From contig CAUJJI010000019.1 of assembly GCA_963205265.1 (NCBI GenBank), forward strand, positions 32,191 through 96,190: a stretch of 64,000 bases of DNA. Reading direction: 5' to 3'. Every line of letters begins with the position of its first letter. Position 1 is the first letter of the stretch. The notes under the pieces were generated by a model that was given only the letters and a program-made list of their open reading frames with translations, searched no databases and had not been told where the DNA came from. A program made the translations under genes and the position numbers. Positions 11,837 through 62,163 of this stretch are shown here, piece after piece. This DNA comes from Pseudomonadota bacterium. Lineage in GTDB: Bacteria > Pseudomonadota > Alphaproteobacteria > Sphingomonadales > Sphingomonadaceae.

Positions 11837-11841
11837 CGCCG

Positions 11842-15062: not shown

Positions 15063-15079
15063 TATGGCCTCCCGCCTCG

Positions 15080-35692: not shown

Positions 35693-36610
35693 ATGGAAGT
35701 CGCCGCCCTGGCCTATAGCGTCATTTCGGCGCGCCAGCCCGATCAATGGGCCCGCTTCGGCGAGGAGATCGCCGGGTTCTGCGCGCGCGAGGTGCCCGGC
35801 GGGATCGCCCTGCGCCTGGACGAGCGCGCCGGGCGCCTGTTCGTCCAGCCTGCGGGCGAGGATCGCTACTTCGCCAGCGGCTGGGAACTGCGTTCGGAAG
35901 CAGACTTCGTCTCCGCGCTGGCAGAGCTGGCGGCCAGGGGCGTCGCCTTCACCCGCGCCACCAGCGCCGAGCGAGCGCTGCGCCATGTCACCGACATGGC
36001 CTGGATCCTCGATCCGTCTGGAAACCGGCACGAGTTGAGCTACGGCTATGTCACCGATTTCGCCCGGTTCTGCTCGCCCACCGGCACCCGCTTCGTTACC
36101 GGCGAGCTCGGCTATGGCCACATGGTCCTGCCCGCCCCCCAGATCGCCGCGACGCGTGCTTTCCTGATCGACGTGCTGGGCCTCGGCGTGTCGGACTTCA
36201 TGATCCACCGCCCGCTCGGCCCCGGTGGCCCCGAGATGCGGATCGACTTCATGCACTGCGCCAACGGCCGCCACCACAGCCTTGCCCTGTTCGAGGGCGA
36301 GGTCCCTTCGGGCTGCGTCCACCTGATGGTCGAGGTCGAAACGATCGACGAGGTCGGCCACGCCCATGACCGGATGCTGGCCGCCGGCGCGCGGATGATG
36401 GCAACGCTGGGTCGCCACACCAACGATCGCATGATCAGCTTCTACGTCGCCACGCCCGGTGGCTTCGCGCTGGAATACGGCACTGGCGGCCGGGTGATCG
36501 ACTGGGACCGCCACGCGGTGTTCGAGAGCACCTCCGCCAGCCTGTGGGGGCACGATTTCAGCGTCGGCTTCGGTGCCGACGAGCAGGCACAACTGGCCGA
36601 CGCGGCCTGA
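35693..36610 (+). CDS. Type I extradiol dioxygenase, HsaC/BphC-like (copy 2)
   Basis: GELGYGHMVLPAPQ, GRHHSLALFEG, GGFALEYGTGG supply the His/His/Glu triad of the VOC extradiol family. Confidence 0.9.
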   Translation: MEVAALAYSVISARQPDQWARFGEEIAGFCAREVPGGIALRLDERAGRLFVQPAGEDRYFASGWELRSEADFVSALAELAARGVAFTRATSAERALRHVTDMAWILDPSGNRHELSYGYVTDFARFCSPTGTRFVTGELGYGHMVLPAPQIAATRAFLIDVLGLGVSDFMIHRPLGPGGPEMRIDFMHCANGRHHSLALFEGEVPSGCVHLMVEVETIDEVGHAHDRMLAAGARMMATLGRHTNDRMISFYVATPGGFALEYGTGGRVIDWDRHAVFESTSASLWGHDFSVGFGADEQAQLADAA

Positions 36611-36628: not shown

Positions 36629-37822
36629 ATGACCCTGGCCCAAGCCATCGAAGTACCCGCCGTCGACGAACTCGTCGCGCGCGCCGCCGCCCTGGTGCCG
36701 GTGCTGCGCGAGCGCGCCGACGCCTGCGACAAGGGCAACCGCGTCCCGGACGAAACGATCCGCGACTTCCAGGCAGCCGGGTTCTTCAAGATCCTGCAGC
36801 CGCGTCGCTGGGGTGGCTACGAGATGGACCCCGAGGCCTTCTACGCGGTGCAGATGAAAGTGGCGGAAGGCTGCATGTCTTCTGCCTGGGTGCTGGGCGT
36901 GGTGGCGGTGCACAACTGGCAGCTCGCGCTGTTTCACCCCCAGGCGCAGGACGATGTGTGGAAGGACGACCCCTCCACGCTGATCTCGTCCTCCTATATG
37001 CCGCGGGCCGAGGTGACGCCGGTGGACGGCGGCTACCGCATCTCCGGCCGCTGGGGCTTTTCCTCGGGCGTCGACCATTGCCAGTGGGCCTTCCTGGGCG
37101 GGCAGGTCAAGGATCCCGAGACCGGAGCGCCGGATTTCGTCACCTTCCTGGTGCCGCGCAGGGACTTCGAGGTGCTGCCGATCTGGGACACGATCGGGCT
37201 GGGCGGGACCGGCAGCCATGACGTGACGGTGAAGGACGCCTTCGTCCCGGCCTATCGCACTCACCGTTCGAAAGACGGGTTCGCCGCGACCAACCCTGGT
37301 GCCAAGTCCAATCCCGGGCCGCTCTACAAGCTGCCTTTCGGCCAGGTCTTCGTCCGCGCTGTCTCATCTTCGTCGATCGGGGCGCTGCAGGGCGCGCTCG
37401 ACATCTTCCGCGAGAAAGGCGCGAAGCGGAAAAGCAACAACACGCTTGCCAGCATATCGGGCGATCCCGACGTCCAGACGCTGCTGGCCGAGACCCAGTC
37501 GGCGATCGACGAGATGAAGACCGTGCTCTACCGCAACTTCGGCGTGCTCAACGACTGCGCGCGCCGGGGCGAACAGGCCGACCTCGATACCCGGCTGCGC
37601 TTCCGCTTCCAGTCGGCTCAGATCTCGGGGCGCTGCTGCGAGCTGATCAGCCGGATGTTCTACCTGAGCGGGGCCGACGGCATCTATCGCGGCAATCCGA
37701 TTGCGCGGACCTTCTGCGATATCCACAGCGGCCGCACCCACGTGGCGAACAATCCCAACACGGTCGGGCGCAATGTCGGGGCGGTGATGCTGGGGGGTGC
37801 CAACACCGACAGCTTCATCTGA
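36629..37822 (+). CDS. Flavin-dependent monooxygenase of the acyl-CoA dehydrogenase fold, HsaA-like (copy 2)
   Basis: FFKILQPRRWGGYEMDPEAFYAVQMKVAEGCMSSAWVLGVVAVHNWQLALF; GTGSHDVTVKDAFVP; next to HsaC-like. Confidence 0.87.
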   Translation: MTLAQAIEVPAVDELVARAAALVPVLRERADACDKGNRVPDETIRDFQAAGFFKILQPRRWGGYEMDPEAFYAVQMKVAEGCMSSAWVLGVVAVHNWQLALFHPQAQDDVWKDDPSTLISSSYMPRAEVTPVDGGYRISGRWGFSSGVDHCQWAFLGGQVKDPETGAPDFVTFLVPRRDFEVLPIWDTIGLGGTGSHDVTVKDAFVPAYRTHRSKDGFAATNPGAKSNPGPLYKLPFGQVFVRAVSSSSIGALQGALDIFREKGAKRKSNNTLASISGDPDVQTLLAETQSAIDEMKTVLYRNFGVLNDCARRGEQADLDTRLRFRFQSAQISGRCCELISRMFYLSGADGIYRGNPIARTFCDIHSGRTHVANNPNTVGRNVGAVMLGGANTDSFI

Positions 37823-37852: not shown

Positions 37853-38344
37853 TCAGTCGCCGTCGTCTTCCACTACGCCACGCGAGGTGATCTTGGCCAT
37901 GCGGGCGTTGTACTTGATCGTCTTGACCGCGATCGAGGTCTCGACGTGGTGCACGCCCGGGATGCCGAGGATACGGTCCGAGGCGGTCTCGACCAACTGG
38001 TCGAGCTCGCTGATCAGGCACACGGCCAGGATGTTGAACTGCCCCATGGTGATCATCACCGCGTTGATCATCGGCAAGCCGGAGATTTCGTGAGCGATCT
38101 CGCGCACGCGGTCGACGTCGGCCTGGATGCTGATGAAGGCAAGCCGCGAATTCTTCGCCATGCCGAAGCTGGTGATCGCGGTAAATGCGATCAGCCCGTC
38201 CTGCTGCAATCGCTTGATTCGCCCGCGCACCGTGCCCTCGGTGACGCCCAGCTCGCTCGCAACCTTGCGGTTCGAGACGCGGGCATCGCGCGAAAGCAGC
38301 TCGATCAGCTGGAGATCAAGTTCGTCGATCTGGACATCGGCCAT
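37853..38344 (-). CDS. Lrp/AsnC-family regulator
   Basis: DELDLQLIELLSRDARVSNRKVASELGVTEGTVRGRIKRLQQDGLI. Confidence 0.93.
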   Translation of the reverse strand: MADVQIDELDLQLIELLSRDARVSNRKVASELGVTEGTVRGRIKRLQQDGLIAFTAITSFGMAKNSRLAFISIQADVDRVREIAHEISGLPMINAVMITMGQFNILAVCLISELDQLVETASDRILGIPGVHHVETSIAVKTIKYNARMAKITSRGVVEDDGD

Positions 38345-38347
38345 GGC

Positions 38348-38821
38348 TCAGCTCCTTGCCTCGATCGGCGCGACATCGAACTGGTACTTGACGATATCGA
38401 CCACGATCGACGGGACCAGACTGCGGATGCCGCGAACCTTGGAAAACTTTTCGAGCAGCAGGCTGGAAAGATCCTCGAGCCCGTGCAGCGCCACCAGCAT
38501 GTCGATGTCGTAGCGACCGGTGACCAGGTGGGTGGCGAAGACCTCGGGGATCTGGGCCAGGTCGTGCGCCACCTGCGAAGCCGGGCGACCATCCACTTCC
38601 ACCATCACCCGCATCAGGAAGTTGAAGCCGTGAGCCGAAAAATCGGACACGGCGACGACGCGCAGCATGTTCGCTTCCTCCATGCGCTTGATGCGCGAGG
38701 AAACGGTGGTCGCGGTCAGGCCCAGGCCCTCGGCGATCTGCTGGTTGGAGGCGCGCCCGTGGCGGCGCAGATGCTCGATGATCTTGTGATCTACGGCATC
38801 CAACTGGATTGGCTGTGTCAT
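38348..38821 (-). CDS. Lrp/AsnC-family regulator
   Basis: LDAVDHKIIEHLRRHGRASNQQIAEGLGLTATTVSSRIKRMEEANML. Confidence 0.93.
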   Translation of the reverse strand: MTQPIQLDAVDHKIIEHLRRHGRASNQQIAEGLGLTATTVSSRIKRMEEANMLRVVAVSDFSAHGFNFLMRVMVEVDGRPASQVAHDLAQIPEVFATHLVTGRYDIDMLVALHGLEDLSSLLLEKFSKVRGIRSLVPSIVVDIVKYQFDVAPIEARS

Positions 38822-39012: not shown

Positions 39013-39888
39013 TCAGCCGCGGCCCTTGCCGACGTAATCGCCATGGCCTTCGTGGCACAGGCGGTTGGTATCGGCCCAGGTGCCGTCGGGGATCACCGGC
39101 GTGATGCCCAGCTCCTCGCGGATGTCGGCGACCTGCCAGTCGACCATGTCGCGCCAGGGGGCGAGCATGATCGGGTAGTGCCAGTTGCGCCCCTGTTCCG
39201 CCCCCTTGAACTCCGCCTCGAGATTCACCGCCATTGCCTCGGGGTAATAGAGCGCGTCCTTCAGGATCGTCTTGGCCTTGAGGTAGGCGAAGACGCGGTT
39301 GAAGAAGTTGGCCAGCTCGGGCCGGAAATAGCGGGCCCGGGCGTGCATGTTGGCCGTAACCATCGCCACTTCGCCGCCGTGGTTGGGACCGAAGCCCGTC
39401 ACCATGTGCTCGATATCGTGAGTCAGCGAAGTCTGGCGCAGGTAATAGGTGAAGTCGTTGGTCACCTGGACTTCCTGGAAGAACAGGTCGAGGCGATAGC
39501 CGGTTTCCTCCATCCACTGCCGCAGCGCCTCGCCCAGGGTGCCGGGCGCGCAGGCCTTCACCTCGTCAAGGCTGAAGTCCGACAGCTGGCGCCGGTCGAG
39601 CCACTCGCGAAAGCGCGGCAGGCGGGCCTTCTCCTCCTCGAACAGTCGCAGGATCACCGGCATGTCTTCCAGCTCGTGAAGGATCTGGGCGACTTCGGGG
39701 ATGAAGGCGGTGTTGGGCAAGTCGGCGCCGTTGCGGCGCAGCATCTCCTGCGCGATCAGCGCGCGCAGCCCGGCGTGATTGAGGTAGGGCGAATTGCTGA
39801 CCAGCAGTGAACTCTCGGTGGCGATGCTGACTATCCCGCCGTTGAAATAGGCCCGGTCGGCATCGCTCACTCGCGCTTGCGTGTTCAT
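39013..39888 (-). CDS. Coq4-family protein
   Basis: SLTHDIEHMVTGFGPNHGGEVAMV matches the Coq4 HDxxH-x11-E signature. Confidence 0.8.
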   Translation of the reverse strand: MNTQARVSDADRAYFNGGIVSIATESSLLVSNSPYLNHAGLRALIAQEMLRRNGADLPNTAFIPEVAQILHELEDMPVILRLFEEEKARLPRFREWLDRRQLSDFSLDEVKACAPGTLGEALRQWMEETGYRLDLFFQEVQVTNDFTYYLRQTSLTHDIEHMVTGFGPNHGGEVAMVTANMHARARYFRPELANFFNRVFAYLKAKTILKDALYYPEAMAVNLEAEFKGAEQGRNWHYPIMLAPWRDMVDWQVADIREELGITPVIPDGTWADTNRLCHEGHGDYVGKGRG

Positions 39889-39893
39889 CGCAC

Positions 39894-41636
39894 TTACTCC
39901 GCAGCTTGCGCCACCCTGGCGCTGTCATGGACAGGGGAAAGGAACTGGCCCGGGGTCGCCCCGGTATAGGCGCCGTTCTCGAAAGTCGGCACGCCGTTCA
40001 CCATGGTCAGGCGGGCAGGCATGGCATCGCGAGTGAAGCGCCAGGTCGTGCCGCCCTTGCCATCGGGTACGTCGTGCGCCTTGCGCATCGGCCGGCGCTC
40101 GATCTCGGCAAGATCGAATACGCAGATGTCCGCCCGCTTGCCCGGCGCGATCGTGCCGCGATCGTGGAGGCGGAAATGTTCGGCAAGCTTGCCCGTCATC
40201 ACGTGGACCGCCTCTTCCAGCGCCAGCTTGCCCTCGTCGCGCACGTATTGAGTCAGCAGCAGCGCATTCTCGCCGCCGCCGCACAGCATCTGCAGGTGCG
40301 CACCCGCGTCGGAGATGTTGCCGACGGTCCGGTGGTCCCGCATCAGCGCGATGGTCAACGCCTCGTCCTTGGGGAACGGCGCCATGTGGACCGTCGAGCG
40401 GGTGCCGTTGTCGAGCAGCCAGTCGGCCATCGCGTCGGAGCGGTGCAAGCCCCGCTGCGCGGCATGGGCTTCCAGAGTCAGGCCCAGCGGGCCTGTGCCG
40501 TTCTCCGAATCGAGCAGCAGCAGCTCCTGCGGATTCTTGAGCGGGCTGTGGTCCCAGGCCTCGTTGTCCCAGCTTTCCCGGGCCCGGGCTCGCCAGGCGG
40601 GATCGGAAAGCAGCGCGCGCTTTTCCTCGTGCGTTTCGGCCAGCACCACTTCGTGCCAGACGTAGTCGTTGCACTGCGCGAAGATCAGCGATTTGACGAT
40701 CGACAGCACGTTGGTGGGCGAGACGTGGGCAAAGCCCGGCCAAACGTCGATCCCTGCCGCGCGCATCGAGGCGATCGAACGCTGCATCGGCTCGAGCATG
40801 GGCTTCTGGAATTCAAGCGTCGGCACGCCGCCGGCGATCTGCACGCGAATTGCGCGGCCCGCCAGCAGGCGCTCCAGCCGCTCGAGATTGGCTGGGCCGG
40901 TCATCCGCATGAAGGTATCGACGATCACTTGGTAGCAGGCCGCCGGATGCCGCTCCATCACGTCGAACAGCGCGGCGAATTCGGCATCGCAGGCAAGCAG
41001 CGAGGGCACGGGGCGGTTCGATCCGTCGTGATCGTGCATGTTGTCCGAAAGGCCGAGCGCACCGGCGCAAAGCGCATCGTCGAGCAGTTCGGCCATGCGG
41101 GCGATCTCCTGCGGCGTTGCCGCGCGCTCCCAGGCTTCCACCCCCATCGCCGCCAGGCGCAGCGCGATGTGGCCGACGTAGGCGGCATAGTTCAGCGGCA
41201 CCCGCACATTGCGCTCGGCCGAGGCCTTGTATTCCGACCACAGGTTCCAGTCCCAGGGCAGGTTCTGGAGGAAAGGCTCCATCGGGATATCTTCGAAGAA
41301 GCTGAAGATGCCGATCATCTCGCGCTGCGCAGGCATGTAGCGATGCAGGGGCGCGGCGGTGAAGCCGCAGTTGCCCAGGATCATCGTCGTCGCGCCATAG
41401 CCGGGGAGCGGGTCGAGGTCCGGCTGCCACCACATCGTGCCGTCGTAGTGCGTGTGGCTTTCGATGAAGCCGGGAGCCACGTGGCAGCCGCCAGCATCGA
41501 ACACCCGCTCGCCGCGGGGGGCCAGGTTCGGACCGACCTCGACGATCGTGCCGCCGCTGACCCGCACGTCGGCCGCAAAGGGCGGCGCTCCCGTGCCGTC
41601 GACGACAATGCCGTTGGTGATGAGGATATCGCTCAT
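39894..41636 (-). CDS. N-acyl-D-amino-acid deacylase-family amidohydrolase (second copy)
   Basis: ILITNGIVVDGTGAPPF...GFIESHTHYDGTMWWQPDLDPLPGYGATTMILGNCGFTAAPL; GNISDAGAHLQMLCGGGE. Confidence 0.87.
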   Translation of the reverse strand: MSDILITNGIVVDGTGAPPFAADVRVSGGTIVEVGPNLAPRGERVFDAGGCHVAPGFIESHTHYDGTMWWQPDLDPLPGYGATTMILGNCGFTAAPLHRYMPAQREMIGIFSFFEDIPMEPFLQNLPWDWNLWSEYKASAERNVRVPLNYAAYVGHIALRLAAMGVEAWERAATPQEIARMAELLDDALCAGALGLSDNMHDHDGSNRPVPSLLACDAEFAALFDVMERHPAACYQVIVDTFMRMTGPANLERLERLLAGRAIRVQIAGGVPTLEFQKPMLEPMQRSIASMRAAGIDVWPGFAHVSPTNVLSIVKSLIFAQCNDYVWHEVVLAETHEEKRALLSDPAWRARARESWDNEAWDHSPLKNPQELLLLDSENGTGPLGLTLEAHAAQRGLHRSDAMADWLLDNGTRSTVHMAPFPKDEALTIALMRDHRTVGNISDAGAHLQMLCGGGENALLLTQYVRDEGKLALEEAVHVMTGKLAEHFRLHDRGTIAPGKRADICVFDLAEIERRPMRKAHDVPDGKGGTTWRFTRDAMPARLTMVNGVPTFENGAYTGATPGQFLSPVHDSARVAQAAE

Positions 41637-43093
41637 GGCCTGCTCCCATTTCCGGTTTTCTGGTCGGTGTCGTCGCCTGCCTCGATCGCTGCGAGGCGCG
41701 CCCGCGCGCGGGCGGCGTGTTCGAGGTAGATGGTCGATTCCTGCAGCGGCATGCCCTCTTCGGCGAGCCGCGCGAGGTAGACGTCGACCGTGAGGCGCAG
41801 CGCCCGCGGATCGCCGGGGGCGCCGAAATAGGCCCAGTCCGCCAGTCGCGCGGCAAGGCGCGGGTCTCTCGCCAGCAGCTCGCGCGCGCGCCGGTCGACC
41901 GCGTCGAGCCCGCCCGCCATGCGCAGCGCCTCGGCCGCCTCGTCCTCGAAGCGCAGCGCCGCGAAGTGCGAGGGCAGGCCGTCCCACCAGCCCGTCCAGC
42001 GCAGGGAAACCATGCGGGAGATGTCCTCGGGCCGGTTGTATTGCGGATCGAGCAGCGGCGAGGCGGCGAAGCGTTCGGGCCAGGCGAAGTGGGCGGCAAT
42101 CGCGTCGCGTCGTTCCCCGGCATTGAGCCGTCGCACGGTCTCGGCCGAGACGTATTCGAGCGCCTCGGCGGTGATCCCCAGCGCCTCGGCGATCCGGGCG
42201 GGATCGTCCATCGCCGCGCCGTGCATCGGCAGCAGGCGCGCCGGCTTGAGCGCCGCCATGGCCCTGAGCGCGGCCGCCCATTCGTCGACATGGCGCAAGA
42301 TCCGCTTGCCGTTGCCGGCATTGGGGAGGAACCCCTGGAAATAGTCCGCGGTGAAGATCGCCCGCCGCGCAGGCATGGCCATCCACACCTGCTCCTCTGT
42401 CTCGCCGGGGGCGTGGAACAGGTCGAACCGCTCGCCGTCGATGGTCAGTGCCAGGTGGTCGCGAAACATGATGTCGGGCCTGGGCAGGCGATCGGGCGTG
42501 GTCGGCCAGGTCTCGATCTTCTGGTTGTTGAGCCGCCCGATGATGCCGCCCAGGCGCACTTCCCTTGCCGCCATGGCCGGGAACAGGTCGCTGGCGATGG
42601 TCTTGGCCCGCGGCCAGCGCCGCTTCAGTGCGGGCCAGCCATAGGCGTGGTCGTTGTGGATGTGGCTGACCACGATATGAGTCACCGGCTTGGCGGTAAG
42701 CGTCGGGATCGTCTCGACCAGCACGGGCCCGATCGCGGCATAACCGGTATCGAACACCACCACCCCGCGCCGGGTCTCGATCACCGCCACGTTGACATAG
42801 GGAAAGCGCAGCAGCCACAAGCCGCGACCCTGCGGCTCGACGGTCATCTTCGCGCGCGCCTCGGCAACGAGCTCGGGCGCGTCGGACAGCATCGATCCGG
42901 CGATCAGGTTGCTTGCCGGGCCGCCGAACCCGTCCTTGCGGAATACGTGGCGCAGCACCTCGCCATGCTCGCGCGCGATCAGCATCCGCCCGCGCTGGAC
43001 GAGGAGATCGTCGGCATTGGGGGCAAGCGGAGCCCCGGCGTGCAAGGCTGCCGGGGCGAGCGCAAGGGCAAGCGCGAGCAGCGTGCGGATCAT
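41633..43093 (-). CDS. Exported MBL-fold hydrolase, alkylsulfatase-like
   Basis: Signal peptide, VVSHIHNDHAYGWPALKRRW, FHAPGETEEQVWMAMP, alkyl sulfatase-like C-terminus; ATGA overlap with the amidohydrolase. Confidence 0.8.
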   Translation of the reverse strand: MIRTLLALALALAPAALHAGAPLAPNADDLLVQRGRMLIAREHGEVLRHVFRKDGFGGPASNLIAGSMLSDAPELVAEARAKMTVEPQGRGLWLLRFPYVNVAVIETRRGVVVFDTGYAAIGPVLVETIPTLTAKPVTHIVVSHIHNDHAYGWPALKRRWPRAKTIASDLFPAMAAREVRLGGIIGRLNNQKIETWPTTPDRLPRPDIMFRDHLALTIDGERFDLFHAPGETEEQVWMAMPARRAIFTADYFQGFLPNAGNGKRILRHVDEWAAALRAMAALKPARLLPMHGAAMDDPARIAEALGITAEALEYVSAETVRRLNAGERRDAIAAHFAWPERFAASPLLDPQYNRPEDISRMVSLRWTGWWDGLPSHFAALRFEDEAAEALRMAGGLDAVDRRARELLARDPRLAARLADWAYFGAPGDPRALRLTVDVYLARLAEEGMPLQESTIYLEHAARARARLAAIEAGDDTDQKTGNGSRP

Positions 43094-43803
43094 GACGCCT
43101 GCCCGAAATCGAACTGGCTGGTTGGGACGATGTCGTTCCGCGCGACATCGAGGAAGGCCCGGCAGCTGTCCATCATCGCCTTGAGATTGGCTCTCAACCG
43201 CCCGGCATCGCCCAGCGCAGCGAAGAAGGCGGCGGGGTCGGTCATCGCCTCGGGCGGGAAGCATTCCTCGACGAAGGCATCGTAGACCGGAGCATCGGGA
43301 GTCAGCGGGCAGACTATGGCGTTCTGGACATATTCGAAGTTCGCCTGGGTATCGATGGCGATGGGAGTGTGCTGTTCGTGCCAGTGAGCGAGCGCGGCGG
43401 CGCGGGGCAGGTCGGCGCGAAACGAGATGAAGCTCGCCTGGGCCCAGCCCCATGTCCGTTCGCCGGGGAGCGGGGAATGCGCGGTGTTGGCGATCACGGT
43501 CGATTCGGCCACCAGCCAGGCGGCAAAGCGCGCCGCGTGCGCCGCCACGGCCTGGTCTGCCGCGCCCCGGAACAGCGCATTGGCGCACGGAAGCCAATAT
43601 TGCACCACGGCTTCCTGCTGCGGCGCCTGCCAGCGCTGGACGAGGCCTGCCGCAGCGTCGACCGCGGCATCGGCGATGTTGATCCGAATGCCACTCGCCC
43701 CGCAGGCGCGCAACGCTTCGGGCAAAGAGGTGCGCAGGCGCAAGGCAAAGGCATCGCGCGGTTCGCCGGGATCCCGCCATAGCGCGCAGACGACCTTCTC
43801 CAT
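43090..43803 (-). CDS. EthD-domain-like hypothetical protein
   Basis: Two ferredoxin-like halves; EKVVCALWRDPGEPRDAFALRLRTSLP...; ATGA overlap with the MBL gene. Confidence 0.5.
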   Translation of the reverse strand: MEKVVCALWRDPGEPRDAFALRLRTSLPEALRACGASGIRINIADAAVDAAAGLVQRWQAPQQEAVVQYWLPCANALFRGAADQAVAAHAARFAAWLVAESTVIANTAHSPLPGERTWGWAQASFISFRADLPRAAALAHWHEQHTPIAIDTQANFEYVQNAIVCPLTPDAPVYDAFVEECFPPEAMTDPAAFFAALGDAGRLRANLKAMMDSCRAFLDVARNDIVPTSQFDFGQAS

Positions 43804-43815
43804 GCCTTCGCGCCC

Positions 43816-44589
43816 TCAGTCGAAATTGGCCTGCCCGCCGTCGAGCGGGATGGTTGCGCCAGTGAGGTAGCCAAGCTCGTCGCCGCAGAGCGCGGCCACG
43901 GCGCGGCCGATATCCTCTTCCAGTCGCCCGATCCGCCCCAGCGGGATCGTGCGGAAGAACGCCTCGGCCTCTTCGGGGTTGTTCTCGACCCACCACTTGA
44001 GGCCAGGCGATTCGGCATGCGGGGCAATGGTCAGCACGCGAATGCCTTCGCGCCCCCATTCGGCGGCACCGGCCCGGGTGAGTGCGCGGATCGCCTGCTT
44101 GACCGCACCATAGGCGCCATAGCCGCTCATGTCCCAGCGCAGCCCTGCCGAGGAAGCGAGATTGACGATCGTGCCGCCGCCGCGTGCGGCAAGGTGGGGC
44201 CGGGCCAACTTCATCAGCCGGAACGTGGCTAGCGGACCCGATTCGAAGCCGGCGAGGAAGGCCTCGTCGCTGACGTCGTCGAGCTTGCCGAGCGGGACTT
44301 CCTGCGCGTTGTTGACCAGGATATCGAGGGCCCCGAACCCAGCCACCGCACGGTCCACTGCAGCCGCCAGGTCCGCCGGATCGCGCACGTTGCAGGCCAC
44401 GGCGAGCGCGGTTCCACCGCGTGCAGCGAGCTCGGCTGCGGCTTTCTCGACCTTTTCCCGCGTCCGGCCGGCGAGCACCACCCGCGCGCCCGCGGCCGCA
44501 AGTGCAAGCGCGATGCCAAGGCCGACGCCTTGCCCGGCCCCGGTCACCAGGGCTACCTTGCCGCTCAAGTCGGCCATGCCGTCTCCCAT
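43816..44589 (-). CDS. Short-chain dehydrogenase/reductase (SDR)
   Basis: GKVALVTGAGQGVGLGIALAL, ILVNNAQEV, SSAGLRWDMSGYGAYGAVKQAI. Confidence 0.93.
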   Translation of the reverse strand: MGDGMADLSGKVALVTGAGQGVGLGIALALAAAGARVVLAGRTREKVEKAAAELAARGGTALAVACNVRDPADLAAAVDRAVAGFGALDILVNNAQEVPLGKLDDVSDEAFLAGFESGPLATFRLMKLARPHLAARGGGTIVNLASSAGLRWDMSGYGAYGAVKQAIRALTRAGAAEWGREGIRVLTIAPHAESPGLKWWVENNPEEAEAFFRTIPLGRIGRLEEDIGRAVAALCGDELGYLTGATIPLDGGQANFD

Positions 44590-44733: not shown

Positions 44734-46425
44734 ATGGCGCAGCAATGGGATAAGGAGGTCGATGTCCTCGTCGTCGGCTCGGGCGCCGGGGGGTTGCTTG
44801 CCGCTCTGGTTGCGGCGCACGGCGGTGCGGATGTCCTGATCGTCGAGAAGGATCGCCAATGGGGCGGCACATCGGCCACTTCCGGGGGCGGAATCTGGAT
44901 CCCCGGCAGCGACCAGGCCCGCGCGGCCGGGTTCGAGGACAGCCTCGACGATGCCTTCCGCTATGTCCGCGGCCTCAGCGCAGACAATGTGCCCGATGCC
45001 AATATTCGCGCCTATGTCGACAATGCCGCAGCCATGCTGCGCTGGATGACGGCGCATACGCCGGTCGTCTATACTGCCCAGCCCTATCCCGACTACCATG
45101 CGGAGAATCCCGGCGGCTCGCCCGCCGGCTATCGCACCCACTTGCCCGAACTGCTCGACGGCCGCCCGCTGGGCGACGACTTGCGCAGCCAGCGCATGCC
45201 GTCGCCCGCCGCCAGCCTGTTCGGCTACCTCAACTGGACCTTCGCCGAAACCTACGACATGCTGTACCGGCCGAAGGGCTGGCTGTGGCGTTTCGCGGTC
45301 AACATGGCGCGCTACTGGCTGGACTGGCCGTTCCGCTTCACCTCGCGCAAGGACCGCCGCCTCACGCTGGGCAATGCGCTGACCGGCGGCCTGCGCATGG
45401 CGCTCAACCAGCGCGGCGTGCCGCTGTGGCTCGAAACCCCGCTGGCAGAGCTGGTCCACGAAGACGGCCGCGTGGCCGGCGCGGTGGTGACGCACCGGGG
45501 CAAGCGGCTGCGCCTGGCTGCGCGCAAGGGGGTGATCCTCGCCGCCGGTGGCTTCGACAAGAGCCAGGCCAAGCGCGACGCTTTCTCGCCACTCTATCCC
45601 GTCGCGCAGGTTTCAGGCGGGGTGTCGAGCAACACCGGCGATGCGCTCGACGCCGGTCTGGCGGTCGGCGCGGCGACGCTGAACCTGCAATCGGCCTGGG
45701 CGGCGCCGGTGTTCTACGTGCCGGGCGAGGATCGCGGGCGACTGTGCACTATCGAGCGCGCCCTGCCCGGCTGCATCATGGTCAACGGCTCCGGCCGCCG
45801 CTACCTCAATGAGGCGGCATCCTATCACGTCACCGGCCAGGCCATGGCTCGCCGCCAGGCCGAGCACGGCGATGCCGCGCCGAGCTGGATGGTGTTCGAC
45901 TATCGCTATCGCCACCTCTTCCCGATGGGGCCGGTCTATCCGCTGATCCCCGACTGGGCTCAGAACGGCATGGTCAAGACCGTGCTCAAGAAGGGCCGCA
46001 CGATCGAGCAACTGGCCGAGCAGATGGGCGTCGACCCGGGCGCGCTGGCCGAGACGGTCACGCGCTTCAACGCATACGCCGCGCAAGGCGAGGACCCCGA
46101 TTTCCATCGCGGCGAGGCGGCCTACGACAGGATGTACGGCGATCCCCGGCACGGCCCCAATCCCTGCCTGCGCCCGCTCGACGTGGCGCCGTTCTATGCC
46201 CTGCCGATCCACCCGGGCGACATCGGCATGAACGGGGGACTCGCCACGGACGACAAGGCGCGCGTGCTGGGTACCGACGGCAAGCCGATTCCCGGCCTCC
46301 ACGCCATCGGCAACAGCGCGGCATCGGCGATGGGCGAAAGCTATCCCGGTGCCGGGGTGACGATCGGCCCGGCCCTGACCTTCGGCTATATCGCCGCGCG
46401 CGAGCTGGCGGGTACCAACGACTGA
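44734..46425 (+). CDS. 3-ketosteroid delta1-dehydrogenase (KstD)-like flavoprotein
   Basis: DVLVVGSGAGGLLAALVAAHGGADVLIVEK, GGTSATSGGGIWIPG, PFYALPIHPGDIGMNGGLATD, GNSAASAMGESYPGAGVTIGPALTFGYIAA. Confidence 0.85.
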   Translation: MAQQWDKEVDVLVVGSGAGGLLAALVAAHGGADVLIVEKDRQWGGTSATSGGGIWIPGSDQARAAGFEDSLDDAFRYVRGLSADNVPDANIRAYVDNAAAMLRWMTAHTPVVYTAQPYPDYHAENPGGSPAGYRTHLPELLDGRPLGDDLRSQRMPSPAASLFGYLNWTFAETYDMLYRPKGWLWRFAVNMARYWLDWPFRFTSRKDRRLTLGNALTGGLRMALNQRGVPLWLETPLAELVHEDGRVAGAVVTHRGKRLRLAARKGVILAAGGFDKSQAKRDAFSPLYPVAQVSGGVSSNTGDALDAGLAVGAATLNLQSAWAAPVFYVPGEDRGRLCTIERALPGCIMVNGSGRRYLNEAASYHVTGQAMARRQAEHGDAAPSWMVFDYRYRHLFPMGPVYPLIPDWAQNGMVKTVLKKGRTIEQLAEQMGVDPGALAETVTRFNAYAAQGEDPDFHRGEAAYDRMYGDPRHGPNPCLRPLDVAPFYALPIHPGDIGMNGGLATDDKARVLGTDGKPIPGLHAIGNSAASAMGESYPGAGVTIGPALTFGYIAARELAGTND

Positions 46426-46444: not shown

Positions 46445-47527
46445 ATGGCTACCACCAAGGACTACGGCTTCGGCGAGCACGATTTCGCGCGCGGCTGGTT
46501 CATGATCGGCCCGGCGACCGACGCCACGAGCGTGCCCGCGGCGATCCGCTATTTCGGCAAGGACCTGGTGCTCTATCGCGGCGAGTCCGGCAATCCCTAC
46601 GTGGTCGATGCCTATTGCCCGCACATGGGCGCGCACATCGCCAGGAACCGGACTAGCTACATCGTGCTCGACGGCAACCACGTGGCCGGCGAATCGATCC
46701 GCTGCCCGTTCCACGGCTGGAGCTTCGGCCCGGACGGGGCCTGCGACCATATCCCCTATTCGCCCGACTTCATCCCCAAGGCCGCCCGCCTGCGCCACTA
46801 TCCCGTGGTCGAGCGCGCCGGAATCCTGTGGATGTGGCACGATGAGGAAGGCGGGGAGCCGACGCACGAACTGGCGAACTTCGGCGGCCATTACGGCGAG
46901 CCGGGCTGGGTCGAATGGAAGATCGACTACATGGGCGACCTGCCGATCCATGGCGCCGAGATTCTCGACAACATGGCCGACTATGCCCACTTCGTGCCGA
47001 TCCACGGGGCGACCGACTGGCAATATTTCGCCAACGAATTCAAGGGTCACGTCATCCACCAGTACTACAGCGCCGGCCACCGCACGCTTACTGCGAACCC
47101 GGAAGACATGCTGGTGCTCGACACCTGGTACGAAGGCCCCGGCTTCCTCCAGTCGGAAATGGCAGGCACCTTCGACAGCTTCATCATGATTGCCAACACC
47201 CCGATCGAGAACGGCAGCACGCGAGCCTGGCACGCGCTGATGGTCAAGGTGCACGACGGCAGCCGCGAAACCACCGAGGCCGATCGCGCCGCCGCGCTGG
47301 AATACCAGGAAGGCAGCCGCCTGGCCTTTGCGCAGGACGTCGAGATCTGGGCCAACAAGCGCCCCTGCCTCAACCCCATGGCGATCCCGAAGGACGGCCC
47401 CTTCGGCAAGGTTCGCCAGTGGTATTCGCAGTTCCACAAGCCGCGCGCCGAAGCGGCGAAGGTGCACGAACGCGTCAACGGCGTCGTCGTCACGCTCGAC
47501 AAGCGGCCCGGCAAGAGCGCGGCCTGA
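46445..47527 (+). CDS. kshA: Rieske oxygenase, 3-ketosteroid 9alpha-hydroxylase oxygenase (KshA)-like
   Basis: Rieske CPHMGAH...CPFHGWSF; iron site DNMADYAHFVPIHG; adjacent to KstD-like. Confidence 0.85.
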   Translation: MATTKDYGFGEHDFARGWFMIGPATDATSVPAAIRYFGKDLVLYRGESGNPYVVDAYCPHMGAHIARNRTSYIVLDGNHVAGESIRCPFHGWSFGPDGACDHIPYSPDFIPKAARLRHYPVVERAGILWMWHDEEGGEPTHELANFGGHYGEPGWVEWKIDYMGDLPIHGAEILDNMADYAHFVPIHGATDWQYFANEFKGHVIHQYYSAGHRTLTANPEDMLVLDTWYEGPGFLQSEMAGTFDSFIMIANTPIENGSTRAWHALMVKVHDGSRETTEADRAAALEYQEGSRLAFAQDVEIWANKRPCLNPMAIPKDGPFGKVRQWYSQFHKPRAEAAKVHERVNGVVVTLDKRPGKSAA

Positions 47528-54015: not shown

Positions 54016-55476
54016 CTATCCGCGCGCTGCCCGGCGCCCTGCCTGGCGGCCGAAGAAAGTGCAATCGGCAAGGCTCAGCCCGGATGAATAGCCATGGCCC
54101 CAGGCAGGCAATCCGCTGGTGCAACGCCCCGCGGCGTAGAGACCGGGTATCGGCGCGCCGCCGCGGTCGAGCACTTCGCCGTCGATGCTGGTCCGGAGGC
54201 CGCCGAGCGTGAAGAAGCTGAAATAGCTTGTCGCGAAGTTCAATTCGAGCGCGATGAACGGTCCCTGGTCCAGCGGCACCAGGATCGGCTCGCGCTTGCC
54301 GAACAGCGGGTCGCGCCCCAGCCTCGCCTCGCGGTTGTAGACGGCCATGGTAGCCGAAAGCGTGCCGGCCGGCATTTCCAGCTCGGCCTCGACCTCGTCC
54401 CAGCTGTCGCCGGTCCCGGCGATGGAAAGCCGGGCGAAATCCATCGGCTGCACGAAGTGCGCATTGTCGAGCAGCAGGTAGACCTTGCCGCCAGGCTGGT
54501 CGACCGCGCAGCGGCTGACCCGGCCGTGGTAGCAATCCTCGTTGATGAAGCGCTGCCCGGCGGTGTTTACGAAGACACCGTAGGCATGGCTTTCCGGCAT
54601 GGTCCAGGGACAGGTGGTGAAGAACTGCTCCATGTGCACGGCATCGCCGCCCGCCCCAAGGCCGAGCTCGATCCCCGCGCCGTCGTCCTTGTCGCCGATC
54701 GGATCGTTGAGGCGGAAGCTGTCGGGGCAATATTTGCGGCGCATCGTCTCGTTGAACACGAAGCCGCCGGTGGCCAGCACCACGCCCTTCGCGGCGCGCA
54801 CGAAGCGCGGCTGGTTGTCGATCCTGACAATGACGCCGACGATCCGCTCGCCATCCTGCACGAGCGCGAGCGCGCGGGAATCGGTCATGACTTCCACGCC
54901 CTTTGCCCGGGCGCTTGCCTCCAGCACGTCCACCAGCGGCCGTCCGCCGCCCCAGCCCATGTGCTGGATCACGTGTCCGCGCGGTGCCGGCTTTGCCATC
55001 GTGCAGAAAGGCGCGGCCGCTTCGCTGCCCGACCAGATCAGGGTCGAATCGTCAGCCGGCTCGATGTGCTTGCCCGGCAGGTAGTTGCCGCGATAGGGCA
55101 CGCCCTGCGCTTTCAGCCAGGCATAGTGGCCAAGCGCCTCGCGGCCATAGAGCTCGCACTTGGCCTCGTCGACACAAGGACCGCCGGCCGCCTTGAGATA
55201 GGCGGTGAAGTCCTCGGTCGTATCCTCGAACCCGGCGGCGCGCTGGGCATCGGTGCCGCCGCCGCCGCCGATGTATATCTCGCCGCCCGAAAGGCCCGAA
55301 GCCCCGCCGCTGCCCGAATTGCGTTCGAACAGCATGACTCGCGCGCCGGCATCGGCAGCCTCGATCGCCGCGCAGGCCCCCGCCGCGCCGAAGCCGATCA
55401 CGGCAACTTCGGTCTCGAAGTCCCAAGCCCGAACCTCGCCGGCGGGATAGGGCCGGTGCAGCGATATCTCAGCCAT
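54016..55476 (-). CDS. FAD-dependent KstD/fumarate reductase-family dehydrogenase (possible delta4-type)
   Basis: [89 protein letters not shown]. Confidence 0.85.
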
Positions 55477-56506
55477 GCCGCGCCTTCACCATGTCGAGCG
55501 CGACATCGACGATCATGTCCTCCTGCCCGCCGACCATCTTGCGTCGGCCGAGCTCGACCAGGATCGCGCGGGTATCGATGCCGTATGTCTCGCTGGCCTT
55601 TTCGGCATGGCGCAGGAAGCTGGAATAGACCCCCGCATAGCCAAGGCTCAAGGTCTCGCGGTCGACGCGCACCGGGCGGTCCTGCAGCGGGCGCACCAGG
55701 TCCTCGGCGGCATCCATCAGCAGATTGACGTCGCAACCGTGATTCCAGCCCTTGCGGTCGGCGGCGGCGACGAAGACTTCCAGCGGGGCATTGCCTGCGC
55801 CCGCACCCATGCCGGTGAGGCTGGCATCGATCCGCACCGCACCGCACTGGGCTGCGACGATCGAATTGGCGACGCCGAGCGAGAGGTTGTGGTGCGCGTG
55901 CATGCCGCGCTGGGTTTCCGGCTTCAGCACGCGGTCATAGGCCTCGAAGCGGCCGCGCACCCCGTCCATGTCGAGCGCGCCGCCGCTGTCGGTCACATAG
56001 ACGCAGTGGGCGCCGTAGCTTTCCATCAGCAGGGCCTGGGCGGCGAGCCGGTCCGGCTCGATCATGTGGCTCATCATGAGAAAACCCGAAACGTCCATAC
56101 CCAGGTCGCGGGCGATGCCGATATGCTGCTTCGAGACGTCGGCTTCGGTGCAATGGGTCGCCACGCGAACCGAGCGCACGCCGATGTCATAGGCCCGGCG
56201 CAGTTCGTCGACCGTGCCCACCCCGGGCAGGATCAGCGTGGTCAGCACGCATTTGTCGAGCACTTCGGCAACGGCTTCAAGCCATTCCCAGTCGGTATGG
56301 GCGCCGAAACCGTAGTTGAAGCTGGCGCCGGAGAGACCGTCTCCATGCGCCACCTCGATCGCGTCGACGCCGGCAGCCTCGATGGCCGCGGCGATGGCGC
56401 GGACGTGATCGATGCCGTACATGTGGCGGATCGCGTGCATGCCGTCGCGCAGGGTGACGTCCTGGATATAAAGCTTGTCGCCTGCCTCGACATCGAACCT
56501 GCTCAT
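55469..56506 (-). CDS. hsaF: 4-hydroxy-2-oxovalerate aldolase (HsaF/BphI/DmpG family)
   Basis: [71 protein letters not shown]. Confidence 0.95.
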
Positions 56507-57450
56507 CGCTCCATCCCCCCCTGGCCCATTCGGCGCGCCGCCAGCAGTTCCCCCGTGGCCTTGGCCGCGGCGGTCATGATGTCGAGATTGCCCGAATAGC
56601 TCGGCAGATAGTCGCCCGCGCCCTCGACTTCGAGCATGATCATCGACTTGATCCCGGTGAACTCGCCCATGCCGGGGATCTTCAGCCGGTTGTTGTCGCC
56701 GAAGCGCTCGAACTGGACTTCCTGCTTGAGCCGGTAGCCGGGCACGTATTTCTGCACTTCGGCCACCATCTCCTCCACCGAGCGCCGGATTGCATCCTCG
56801 CTGCCGCCTTCGGACAGGGTGAAAACCGTGTCGCGCATGATCATCGGCGGTTCGGCGGGATTGAGGATGATGATCGCCTTGCCCCTCGTCGCGCCGCCCA
56901 CAACCTCGATCGCGCGGGCGGTGGTGCGGGTGAACTCGTCGATGTTGGCGCGCGTGCCCGGGCCCGCCGAGCGCGAGGAGACGGAGGCGACGATCTCGGC
57001 ATAGTGAAGCTTGTCCGAGACGCGGGCGACCGCCGCCACCATCGGGATCGTCGCCTGGCCGCCGCAGGTCACCATGTTGACGTTCGGCTGGTCGAGGTGC
57101 TGGCTCATGTTCACCGGGGGAACCGTGAACGGCCCGATCGCGGCCGGGGTCAGGTCGACGACCTGGATGCCGTCCGCGCGCAGCGCCGCGTCATGGGCCT
57201 TGTGCGCATAAGCGCTGGTCGCATCGAAGGCGATGCCGATTTCCGGATAGCAGGCCAGCTTCCGCAGCCCTTCGATCCCTTCATGCGTGGTCGCGATCCC
57301 GCGTTCGCGCGCCATGGCCAGGCCTTCGCTGTAGGGGTCGATCCCGACCACCGCCACCAGCTCCATGTTCTGGGGATACTTGATCATCTTGATCATCAGG
57401 TCGGTGCCGATGTTGCCGGAACCGATGATCGCGGCCTTAACCCGTGTCAT
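56503..57450 (-). CDS. hsaG: Acetaldehyde/propionaldehyde dehydrogenase, acylating (HsaG/BphJ/DmpF family)
   Basis: [64 protein letters not shown]. Confidence 0.95.
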
Positions 57451-57460
57451 TGCCATTTCC

Positions 57461-58237
57461 TCAGACAAAACGTGCGGTGCAACCGCCGATGCCGTGCAGC
57501 GTCATCGCGAAGACATCGCCTTTCGCTGCGGGGGCTAGCGGCACCAGGCTTCCGGAAAGGATCACGTCCCCGGCATCGAGCGTGACGCCGTAGGCGCCAA
57601 GCGTATTGGCAAGCCAGGCGACAGCCTGGGCGGGATTGCCCTGCACTGCACTGCCAAGGCCTTCGGAAAGCGGCTCGCCGTTCCTGGTCACCGTGACGCG
57701 CAGAGCGGCCAGGTCGAGCCCGCGCGGATCGGCGCGCGCCTCGCCCAGCACGAAGACTCCGCAACTGGCGTTGTCGGCCACCGTATCGACAATCCCGATC
57801 TGCCAATCACGGATGCGGCTGTCGACGATCTCGAAGCAGGGCGCGATCGCTGCGGTTGCCGCAACCACGTCTTCGGCGGTGACGCCGGGGCCGGTCAGGC
57901 CATCCGTGAGGATGAAGGCGATCTCGGCCTCGGCGCGCGGGGCAATCAGGGCCTTGCCGTCGACATCGATGGCGCCGTCGACCTGCATCCAGTCGGTCAG
58001 GAAACCGAAGTCGGGCTGGTGCACGCCCAGCATGTCCTGCACTGCCTTGCTGGTGACGCCGATCTTCTTGCCGACGACCCTCTCTCCATCTGCAAGGCGC
58101 CGCGACAGGAAATCGAGGCTGATCGCATAGGCATCGTCGATCGTGAGCGCTGGATCCTGCTCGGCCAGCGGCGCGATCGTGTGGCGTTCGCGCAGCGCCC
58201 GATAGAGCGCTTCGCCATAGTGTTCAGGCTTGTTCAT
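57461..58237 (-). CDS. hsaE: 2-keto-4-pentenoate hydratase family (HsaE/BphH)
   Basis: [54 protein letters not shown]. Confidence 0.93.
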
Positions 58238-59048
58238 TCAGGAAGGCGATCGAATAGCGGTTGAACTCGGCGGCACGTTCCACCTGGACCCAATGGCCGG
58301 TGCGGGTGAAAGTCAGGCAGCGTGCATCGGCGCAGGACTCGAGAAAATGGCGCGAGCCGCTTTCCGGACAGAACTCGTCGTTGAGGCCCCACAGCACCAG
58401 GATCGGCTTGCCGAGTTCGCCCAGGCGAGGACCCAGGTTCGGCGTGCGCATCCGTGCCAGCACATCCTTGGGCTGGGTCCGCGCCACGGCGAAGCGTTCG
58501 GCGATCAGGGCATCCGGAATATTCGGCACGAAGTCGGGGTGGACGAGGTTCGAGACGAGGCGCCGCTGCTCGTCGAGATTGAAATCCGGGCCGCCGAAGC
58601 CGGAAACCATCTTGGCGATCCCGGGCATCTTGAAATAGTCGGCCTGCTCCTCGATGCAGCCCGGCGCCATCAGCACCAGCTTTCCGGTGAATTCGGGCTG
58701 GTCGAGAGTCATCTGGATGGCGATCCCGCCGCCCAGCGAATTGCCGACGAGATGGGCCTGGCCGATCCCGTGCTGGTGCAGCGCGTCGGCGACGGTGTCG
58801 GTGAACAGCCGCAGCGTGTAATCGATCCCTTCGGGCTTCGACGAGGCGCCATAGCCGATCAGGTCGGGCAGGATCACCCGGTAGCCCGCCGCAACGAAGG
58901 CATCGATGTTCAGGCGGAAGTTCGACGCGCCCGAAGCGCCCGGGCCGCTGCCGTGGAGGAACACCACGGCAGGTCCCGATCCGGCTTCCTTCAGGTGGAT
59001 GTCGTAACCGCCGGCGACCCGGTAGGTCGCTTCGCTCAGATCGGCCAA
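58224..59048 (-). CDS. hsaD: Meta-cleavage product hydrolase (HsaD/BphD-like)
   Basis: VVFLHGSGPGASGASNFRLNID, nucleophile GNSLGGGIAIQ, LVLWGLNDEFCP, GHWVQVERAAEFN. Confidence 0.92.
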   Translation of the reverse strand: MADLSEATYRVAGGYDIHLKEAGSGPAVVFLHGSGPGASGASNFRLNIDAFVAAGYRVILPDLIGYGASSKPEGIDYTLRLFTDTVADALHQHGIGQAHLVGNSLGGGIAIQMTLDQPEFTGKLVLMAPGCIEEQADYFKMPGIAKMVSGFGGPDFNLDEQRRLVSNLVHPDFVPNIPDALIAERFAVARTQPKDVLARMRTPNLGPRLGELGKPILVLWGLNDEFCPESGSRHFLESCADARCLTFTRTGHWVQVERAAEFNRYSIAFLNEQA

Positions 59049-59059
59049 AGGTGCGCTCC

Positions 59060-60274
59060 TTACAGGAAAGTGAAGCCCGGGGCCTCGCCCAGCATCGTGC
59101 CGACAACGTCGGCCGTGCGGTTCGACGGATCGTTGGCGACATGGGCCCGGCCGGCGTTGAGATCGAGCCAGGGCTGGATGATCGGGCTCGACATGTAGAT
59201 CGCCCGCCCGCCGAGAAGCTGCATCATGTCGTCCACCAGTTCCGCCAGGCGGCGCACCACAGTGGAAGAGTTGTAGGCGAACAGGGCCCGCTTCTCCATC
59301 GGGATCGACTCACCCCGGCCGGCGATGTCCATCAGTTCGTCGAAGGTGATGCGCAGCGTCGCTTCCATCTCGAGGATCTGGGCATGGGCCCGGGCGATCG
59401 CGGCATGGAGGAACGGATCGGCCTTGGCCGCCTTGCCGGTGTTGGTGGAGATGCGGCTCTGCATGATCTCGATCGCCGCGTTCACTGCCGCGCGGGCCCC
59501 TCCGAAAGCTGCGGTCGAGACCGAGCGGACGAAGACCTGGGCCCAGGGCAGCGTGAACAGGGCAGCGTCGTTCTCGGCCTGGCCGGGGTTGCTGCACCGG
59601 AACCCGTCGACTGCCCGGTGCGTGCGATACTCGGGCACGAAGACATCGTCGACGATCACGTCATGGCTGCCGGTGCCCTGCAGGCCGAACACGTGCCAGC
59701 AATCGCGGTCGATGGCGTAGTCGCTGCGGGGCAGCAGGAAGGTGCGCATGTCGGGCGCTTCGCCTTCGCTCGCCGGCGGCACCACCGCGCCGAGCAGTAC
59801 CCAGTCGCAATGCACCGAACCGGTCGAGAAACCCCAGCGACCCGACAGGCGGAAGCCGCCCTCGACCCGCGTCACCTTCCCGACCGGCTGGTAGGAAGAG
59901 GACGCAAGCGTGGCAGTGTCGCTGCCCCAGACTTCCTGCTGCGCCTCGTCGTGGAACAGGGCCAGTTCGTATGGATGGCAGCCGACCACGCCGAACATCC
60001 ACCCGGTCGACATGCAGCCTTCGGCCAGCGCCTTCTGCACATCGAAGAACACGTTCGGGTTCATCTCGTAGCCGCCCCAGCGCCTGGGCTGAAGAATCCG
60101 GAAGAAGCCGGCCTCGTGGAATTCACGGATCGTCTCGGCCGGGACGTCACGTTCGGCGACACAGCGCGCGGCCCGCGATTTCAGCACCGGGATCATCGCC
60201 TTGGCCCGGGCGACAAGCTCCTCGGGCGCGGGCACCGGTGCGGAAGCGGAATCGGAAAGCGCGGCGCTGGCCAT
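59060..60274 (-). CDS. hsaA: HsaA-like flavin-dependent monooxygenase
   Basis: FFRILQPRRWGGYEMNPNVFFDVQKALAEGCMSTGWMFGVVGCHPYELALF; GLQGTGSHDVIVDDVFVPEYRTHR. Confidence 0.9.
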   Translation of the reverse strand: MASAALSDSASAPVPAPEELVARAKAMIPVLKSRAARCVAERDVPAETIREFHEAGFFRILQPRRWGGYEMNPNVFFDVQKALAEGCMSTGWMFGVVGCHPYELALFHDEAQQEVWGSDTATLASSSYQPVGKVTRVEGGFRLSGRWGFSTGSVHCDWVLLGAVVPPASEGEAPDMRTFLLPRSDYAIDRDCWHVFGLQGTGSHDVIVDDVFVPEYRTHRAVDGFRCSNPGQAENDAALFTLPWAQVFVRSVSTAAFGGARAAVNAAIEIMQSRISTNTGKAAKADPFLHAAIARAHAQILEMEATLRITFDELMDIAGRGESIPMEKRALFAYNSSTVVRRLAELVDDMMQLLGGRAIYMSSPIIQPWLDLNAGRAHVANDPSNRTADVVGTMLGEAPGFTFL

Positions 60275-60450
60275 GGGCAAGTTCTCCCCTTATCGAATCA
60301 TTCTGTCGATTCAGTATAACTTCGCAAAAATTTCTGCCATGTGTTACGCAAATCGTCAATTGAAAAGCGTCGCGGCTTTCGATATGGGCAATTTCGAATC
60401 TCGCGGAACAAGTATATTCGTTCCGACGCAAACACAGGGGAGAGCCTCGG

Positions 60451-61215
60451 TTGAAGCCATCGCGCAGCCTTGATCTGAGCGGCCGTGTCGCCATCGTAAC
60501 GGGTGGAACGCGGGGCCTGGGGCGAGTCATCGCCGCCCGCCTCGCCGAGGCAGGGTGCGTGGTCGCGGTTTGCGGCCGCACCGAGCCCGACAGCCTGCCG
60601 GAGGGCGTTGCCTTCCACGCTGCCGACATCCGCGATCCCGATCAGGCCCAGGCTTTCGTCGCCGCCGTTGCCGCAGAGCATGGCCGGCTCGACATCCTAG
60701 TGAACAATGCCGGCGGTTCGCCCAAGGCGGACGCCGCGACGGCGAGCCCGCGCTTCTTCGATTCGGTGCTCAAGCTCAATCTTCATGCAGCGATGTACAT
60801 GGCCCAAGCCGCCCATGCGCCGATGCGGGCAAGCGGCGGCGGATCGATCGTCAACATCGCCAGCGTATCGGCAATCCGCCCATCGCCGGGCACTGCGGCC
60901 TATGGCGCGGCCAAGGCCGGCCTGCTCAACCTGACGCAGAGCCTGGCCCAGGAATGGGGGCCGGACGCGATCCGGGTCAACGCGATCATCGCCGGGCTCA
61001 TGCAGACCGAAACTGCCGAGCAGACCTATGGCGATGCCCAGGCCCAGGCGGCAGTCGGCCGGTCGATGCCGCTGCAACGGATGGGCACCGGCGACGACCT
61101 CGCCGGGGCCGTGCTGTGGCTCTGTTCCGATCTGGCCGGCTGGGTCAGCGGCGCACGCATCAATGTCGACGGAGGCGGCGAGCGGCCGCTTTTCCTCGAC
61201 CTCGTAGGGGAGTAA
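60451..61215 (+). CDS. SDR
   Basis: GRVAIVTGGTRGLGRVIAARL, ILVNNAGGSPKA, IASVSAIRPSPGTAAYGAAKAGLLNL; TTG start. Confidence 0.9.
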   Translation: MKPSRSLDLSGRVAIVTGGTRGLGRVIAARLAEAGCVVAVCGRTEPDSLPEGVAFHAADIRDPDQAQAFVAAVAAEHGRLDILVNNAGGSPKADAATASPRFFDSVLKLNLHAAMYMAQAAHAPMRASGGGSIVNIASVSAIRPSPGTAAYGAAKAGLLNLTQSLAQEWGPDAIRVNAIIAGLMQTETAEQTYGDAQAQAAVGRSMPLQRMGTGDDLAGAVLWLCSDLAGWVSGARINVDGGGERPLFLDLVGE

Positions 61216-61222
61216 TCGGGCC

Positions 61223-62158: not shown

Positions 62159-62163
62159 ACGGG

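Follow-up and report, generated by a model that had tools for sequence, protein, structure and literature searches.

A Coq4-family gene stands at the end of a steroid catabolic operon in the 64,000-nucleotide stretch of Novosphingobium DNA analysed here (the window), and its product probably contributes to steroid breakdown, at a step not yet described, and not to coenzyme Q synthesis. The favoured explanation, which is considered likely, is that a Coq4-fold, metal-dependent protein has been recruited into sphingomonad steroid catabolism, where it would work together with an amidohydrolase partner. To our knowledge, Coq4 proteins are known only from ubiquinone synthesis. If the explanation is correct, the Coq4 fold has a second role, with a large separate branch tied to steroid breakdown. 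Public annotation labels the genes of this clade as ubiquinone genes, and many such annotations would be corrected. It would also single out a concrete gene pair in published degraders of steroids and aromatic compounds (Caenibius tardaugens and N. aromaticivorans). The features of the window are collected in Table 1.

Table 1. Features of the window around the Coq4-family gene (positions count from the first nucleotide of the window; identities are to C. tardaugens counterparts)
Feature	Position	Strand	Basis
HsaC/TesB-like extradiol dioxygenase	35693..36610	+	NF045631, 252 bits (cut-off 450); 72% identity
HsaA/TesA2-like monooxygenase	36629..37822	+	NF045629, 385 bits (cut-off 450); 84% identity to TesA2 (EGO55_13440)
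Two adjacent Lrp/AsnC-type regulators, directly downstream of coq4	37853..38821	-	PF13404 for 37853-38344
Coq4-family protein, steroid-associated clade (subclade A)	39013..39888	-	ATG start, 291 aa; PF05019
HDxxH-x11-E metal-site motif (H157, D158, H161, E173) with clade-typical extra E160 (HDxEH)	39370..39420	-	Alignment
Amidohydro_3/D-aminoacylase-family hydrolase, 5 bp upstream of coq4	39894..41636	-	PF07969
Metallo-beta-lactamase fold with alkyl-sulfatase dimerisation domain	41633..43093	-	PF00753 (3.3e-18), PF14863 (4e-15)
EthD-domain homologue of Hsh3-family 7beta-hydroxysteroid dehydratases	43090..43803	-	PF07110; 61% identity to EGO55_13495
SDR oxidoreductase at the head of the operon	43816..44577	-	PF13561; 79% identity to the orthologue
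KstD-like 3-ketosteroid dehydrogenase, transcribed divergently from the operon	44734..46425	+	NF009478 as best NCBIfam match, 505 bits (cut-off 789)
KshA-like Rieske oxygenase	46445..47527	+	PF19298 (KshA_C), 191 bits
Second ring-degradation block: FAD protein, aldolase, acetaldehyde dehydrogenase, hydratase, HsaD-like, HsaA-like, HsaC-like	54016..63842		Synteny with the SD cluster of C. tardaugens

Family, metal motif and predicted fold

The 39013-39888 product matches the Pfam Coq4 family with 27.5 bits (E 2.3e-6; gathering cut-off 22.9), which bears out the family named in the preliminary description of this DNA. The exact HDxxH-x11-E motif reported there at about 39370-39420 is intact and comprises residues 157-173 (HDIEHMVTGFGPNHGGE; bases 39370-39420). 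H157, D158, H161 and E173 are the sole invariant columns of a 36-row alignment (A1) that spans all Coq4 subfamilies found, and the motif is therefore not a chance match, an explanation ruled out by the Pfam hit, the fold and this conservation. The frame is kept open in more than 30 orthologues, so 39013-39888 is a real gene, and an error of frame or coordinates is likewise ruled out.

An AlphaFold (AF2) model of the protein, computed with window and locus sequences as input, reached a pLDDT of 91.1 and a pTM of 0.87. A Foldseek search with the model retrieved 3msq (E 7.5e-7, TMt 0.81) and 6e12 (E 2.2e-6, TMt 0.80) and no other PDB fold below E 1. By sequence as well, these Nostoc structures are the only significant PDB matches, with phmmer E-values of 3e-11 for 3msq and 1.5e-4 for 6e12 (Alr8543). 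They differ from the window protein in length (about 207-225 residues versus 291) and share 19-22% identity with it. The crystals of 6e12 contained oleic acid and magnesium. Judged by its Pfam match, its motif and its predicted helical fold, the window protein is a member of the Coq4 family in the broad sense.

Within the family it falls far from the ubiquinone-type (UQ-type) proteins, a class that here comprises the rows ranking highest by Pfam Coq4 score. Two trees were built, a careful one of 52 proteins, from which eukaryotic COQ4 was absent, and a quick one of 84. In the tree of 52 the clade of the window protein separates from the UQ-type Coq4s with 100/100 support, the branch between them adding up to about 3 changes per column. 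The phylogenetic comparison proposed in the preliminary description thus yields a separate clade. In alignment A1 the window protein is 14-19% identical to the UQ-type rows. The clade is marked by an N-terminal SSxLxSxSxYLN, by HDxEH within the metal motif, by an inserted PEL segment and by an invariant Y215; the extra E160 is present in 87% of the clade and in none of the six UQ-type rows. The window protein thus resembles COQ4 (PF05019) in predicted fold, in the HDxxH-x11-E motif and in a Pfam score above the gathering cut-off, but differs from it in belonging to a catabolic operon with an amidohydrolase rather than to a ubiquinone context, in its separate clade and in its own motifs. On these sequence comparisons it is not a ubiquinone-type Coq4, that is, an orthologue of COQ4.

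The operon and its counterpart in Caenibius tardaugens

The minus-strand series runs in the order SDR, EthD, metallo-beta-lactamase, amidohydrolase and, as its last gene, coq4. Successive genes are separated by a 12 bp gap, two 4-bp overlaps (the metallo-beta-lactamase gene overlaps its neighbours at both ends) and a 5 bp gap. The preliminary description had listed amidohydrolase, sulfatase-like, EthD-like and SDR genes and called the operon a steroid operon; the Pfam domains agree with the first statement, and the adjoining kstD, kshA and 9,10-seco ring-cleavage genes agree with the second. The genomic setting is that of a steroid operon and not a ubiquinone or housekeeping context. The amidohydrolase matches D-aminoacylase 1m7j with an E-value of 6e-32 across residues 3-199, and its D-aminoacylase label denotes a sequence match to structures over that segment. 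The metallo-beta-lactamase-fold protein could, to judge from its domains, be a candidate for acting on sulfated steroids.

The 9,10-seco set is complete between 35.7 and 63.8 kb of the window, with genes for KstD, KshA, HsaA, HsaC, HsaD, hydratase, aldolase and dehydrogenase. The KstD, HsaA, HsaC and HsaD relatives match NCBIfam equivalog models, all below the cut-off, and are 62-84% identical to genes of the C. tardaugens steroid region. The scores below the curated cut-offs favour an alternative in which the substrate of the Coq4-amidohydrolase pair is no steroid but another compound broken down by this region, for instance a diterpenoid, a triterpenoid saponin or a further aromatic. This alternative also draws on other Coq4 subclades that pair with AtuA, a protein named for acyclic terpene utilisation, and on clade members that exist without KshA. 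It is nevertheless rather unlikely in view of the synteny with the testosterone region of C. tardaugens and of the Hsh3 homologue within the operon.

The same genes as in the window region are found at 2.855-2.916 Mb in C. tardaugens NBRC 16725. Their order there is hsaC-tesA2-kshA-OYE-Lrp-Lrp-coq4-amidohydrolase-...-hsh3 homologue-SDR-kstD, followed by the SD cluster. This order is mostly kept in the window, where KshA lies beyond KstD, whereas in C. tardaugens it is next to tesA2. Identities between the two regions amount to 51% for KshA, 67% for Coq4, 74% for KstD (EGO55_13510), 76% for the amidohydrolase and 72-74% for the two Lrp/AsnC-type regulators. Testosterone induces kshA (EGO55_13445) 7.8-fold, tesA2 (EGO55_13440) 7.2-fold and kstD (EGO55_13510) 3.5-fold in this organism (PMC6895838), and the Coq4 locus lies between the induced kshA/tesA2 and kstD. 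The gene count from KshA to KstD closes exactly, with Coq4 as EGO55_13465 and the EthD gene as EGO55_13495; the Coq4 locus tag is inferred from this counting. EGO55_13495 has been named as an Hsh3 homologue (PMC12882949), Hsh3 being a 7beta-hydroxysteroid dehydratase with an EthD domain (PMC12175502). By homology, the EthD gene of the window most likely encodes an Hsh3-type steroid dehydratase homologue, which would tie the operon itself to steroids; the preliminary description, which lists it as EthD-like, does not make this link. The C. tardaugens steroid papers that were searched assign no role to Coq4 or to its amidohydrolase.

Partner genes and distribution among genomes

A scan of GTDB genomes yielded 23 orthologues with 49-76% identity, almost all of them from sphingomonads, and the same amidohydrolase adjoins Coq4 at all 23 loci of this first scan. 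Among 57 distinct subclade-A loci, which are not independent events because some come from close strains and some were fetched via the first scan, an amidohydrolase lies at most one gene away in 47 and at most two genes away in 50. The corresponding background is 3 of 465 and 5 of 465 genes. At 43 of the 57 loci an amidohydrolase gene on the same strand immediately precedes coq4, the gap between the two being 5-130 bases. None of ten UQ-type Coq4 loci has one. Other subclades are also paired, with a different amidohydrolase (for example at 2850460-2853062 of C. tardaugens), and a further Coq4 subclade lies in a conserved KstD-AtuA-Coq4 gene row that recurs across many Novosphingobium, for example at loci L033 (13506-17957) and L113 (18536-22917). 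We know of no described role for AtuA in steroid breakdown.

Orthologues with 69-70% identity are encoded on plasmids of known strains, SARO_RS19025 on pNL2 of N. aromaticivorans and IM701_RS16595 on p1 of Novosphingobium sp. ES2-1, and each adjoins a D-aminoacylase gene. Both bear the annotation 'Coq4 family protein' and an automatically transferred ubiquinone GO term; a literature search returned no characterisation of either. Relatives with 54-56% identity are carried on plasmids of Sphingobium isolates, several of which appear by name in a study on strains from soil treated with alpha-tomatine; that study of alpha-tomatine degraders does not mention Coq4. Within Sphingomonadaceae the clade has undergone a radiation, and a single genome can hold up to about seven copies. 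Two small genomes of 2.6-3.0 Mb (G012 and G016, loci L060 and L066) have six to seven matches to the Coq4 clade, some in tandem, and no match to KshA.

An orthologue is present in 22 of 120 Novosphingobium genomes, and KshA (at least 51% identity) accompanies it in 21 of the 22, as against 6 of the 98 genomes that lack the orthologue (Fisher 4e-17 over the 120 genomes, phylogeny uncorrected). Of the clade members, 9 of 32 occur in genomes without a KshA match, and some have no steroid gene nearby.

The window gene might instead be the ubiquinone Coq4 of this organism, having taken over C1 decarboxylation after the housekeeping gene was lost, with its place in a steroid operon incidental. Searches of the assembly (253 contigs, 90% complete) with Pfam, the window protein, a housekeeping Coq4 and the 36-row profile found no second Coq4, and UbiD was not found in the same contigs either. 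On contig C62 the conserved housekeeping site is cleanly empty, serB directly adjoining purL with coq4 missing between them. In two genomes of one other genus, a ubiE-ubiB-coaBC row is followed, 155 bases beyond coaBC, by a 51%-identical relative (L156, 9018-9890; L164, 9056-9928), and these copies are possibly linked to ubiquinone. The sole copy, the empty serB-purL site, the missing UbiD and the relatives next to ubiE-ubiB make a ubiquinone role conceivable for some members. They are counted against the steroid reading, as are the clade members that lack KshA or steroid neighbours.

Several findings nevertheless make a ubiquinone role of the window gene very unlikely. The orthologue and a housekeeping Coq4 are found together in 17 of the 22 genomes, which also weakens the notion of a plain substitute for a lost housekeeping Coq4. 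Members of Novosphingobium make Q-10, and at least 36 of the 120 genomes have neither a detectable Coq4 nor UbiD, so that neither seems to be needed for ubiquinone in the genus. On these two counts, the window gene cannot be taken for the ubiquinone enzyme simply because no second copy accompanies it. The low identity to the UQ-type rows and the very long branch point the same way, and the amidohydrolase partner would be left unexplained. The preliminary description had regarded the gene as a paralog, proposed a search for a second coq4 and counted a sole Coq4 whose deletion affects ubiquinone alone against its own reading. The paralog status holds for the lineage, where relatives carry both types, and not for this genome, where the second copy did not turn up; the objection from a sole copy applies in part to this assembly and is weakened by the 17 genomes with both genes and the 36 with neither Coq4 nor UbiD. 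How ubiquinone C1 decarboxylation takes place in the many Novosphingobium genomes that show neither Coq4 nor UbiD is a side question raised by these data.

Proposed function of the Coq4-amidohydrolase pair

A catabolic role of the window protein is well supported by its context. Given the intact metal site and a fold that binds lipid in 6e12, the simplest proposal is that it acts with the amidohydrolase on a hydrophobic steroid-derived acid. A steroid-derived intermediate would most likely occupy the pocket in which polyprenyl rings are bound in other Coq4 proteins. The H-D-H-E metal site would then act on the bound intermediate, in partnership with the amidohydrolase encoded immediately upstream. 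The acid could be either product or substrate of the amidohydrolase, and the reaction a metal-assisted decarboxylation or a related step at a C-C or C-O bond. Human COQ4 has been reported to be a Zn-dependent C1 decarboxylase that loses its activity in double mutants of the metal site, and its mechanism has been proposed by analogy to decarboxylases of the amidohydrolase superfamily (PMC7615680). By this analogy decarboxylation is a tentative choice of chemistry for the window protein, and the order in which the Coq4 and amidohydrolase steps might follow each other is a guess.

We infer both that the substrate is a steroid and that the protein catalyses a reaction instead of just binding its ligand. 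A non-catalytic carrier of steroids or lipids, through which the amidohydrolase or other operon enzymes would gain access to membrane-bound steroid intermediates, would fit the oleic acid and magnesium in the 6e12 crystals, as well as the conserved pairing with one enzyme family. Such a carrier is unlikely, however, because the metal motif residues are the only ones invariant across all subfamilies, and because the loss of activity in metal-site double mutants of human COQ4 favours catalysis (PMC7615680).

The proposed metal enzyme of steroid catabolism may also belong to a wider pattern, for which the chances appear even. The Coq4 fold would have been recruited and diversified into many paralogues that act as metal enzymes of sphingomonad steroid, perhaps terpenoid, catabolism. 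Several subclades would each have a fixed partner (the amidohydrolase or AtuA) and carry out a step missing from current pathway schemes. Counting against a steroid role, canonical 9,10-seco degraders of other groups have no Coq4 requirement known to us. Several expected enzymes have been listed as absent from sphingomonad steroid pathways (PMC8399759). None of the papers covered by the search links Coq4 to steroid degradation, a mention in a gene list being possible. This agrees with the preliminary description, whose author knew of no such role, and the steroid-associated Coq4 branch is real and apparently undescribed.

Elsewhere in the window, at 10931-16036, a second amidohydrolase gene (13314-15062) is accompanied by genes for a flavin monooxygenase, an alpha/beta hydrolase and a TauD-type dioxygenase. 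The flavin monooxygenase is 44% identical to the product of a C. tardaugens gene about 30 kb past the SD cluster of that organism, and the group is possibly another steroid or terpenoid operon.
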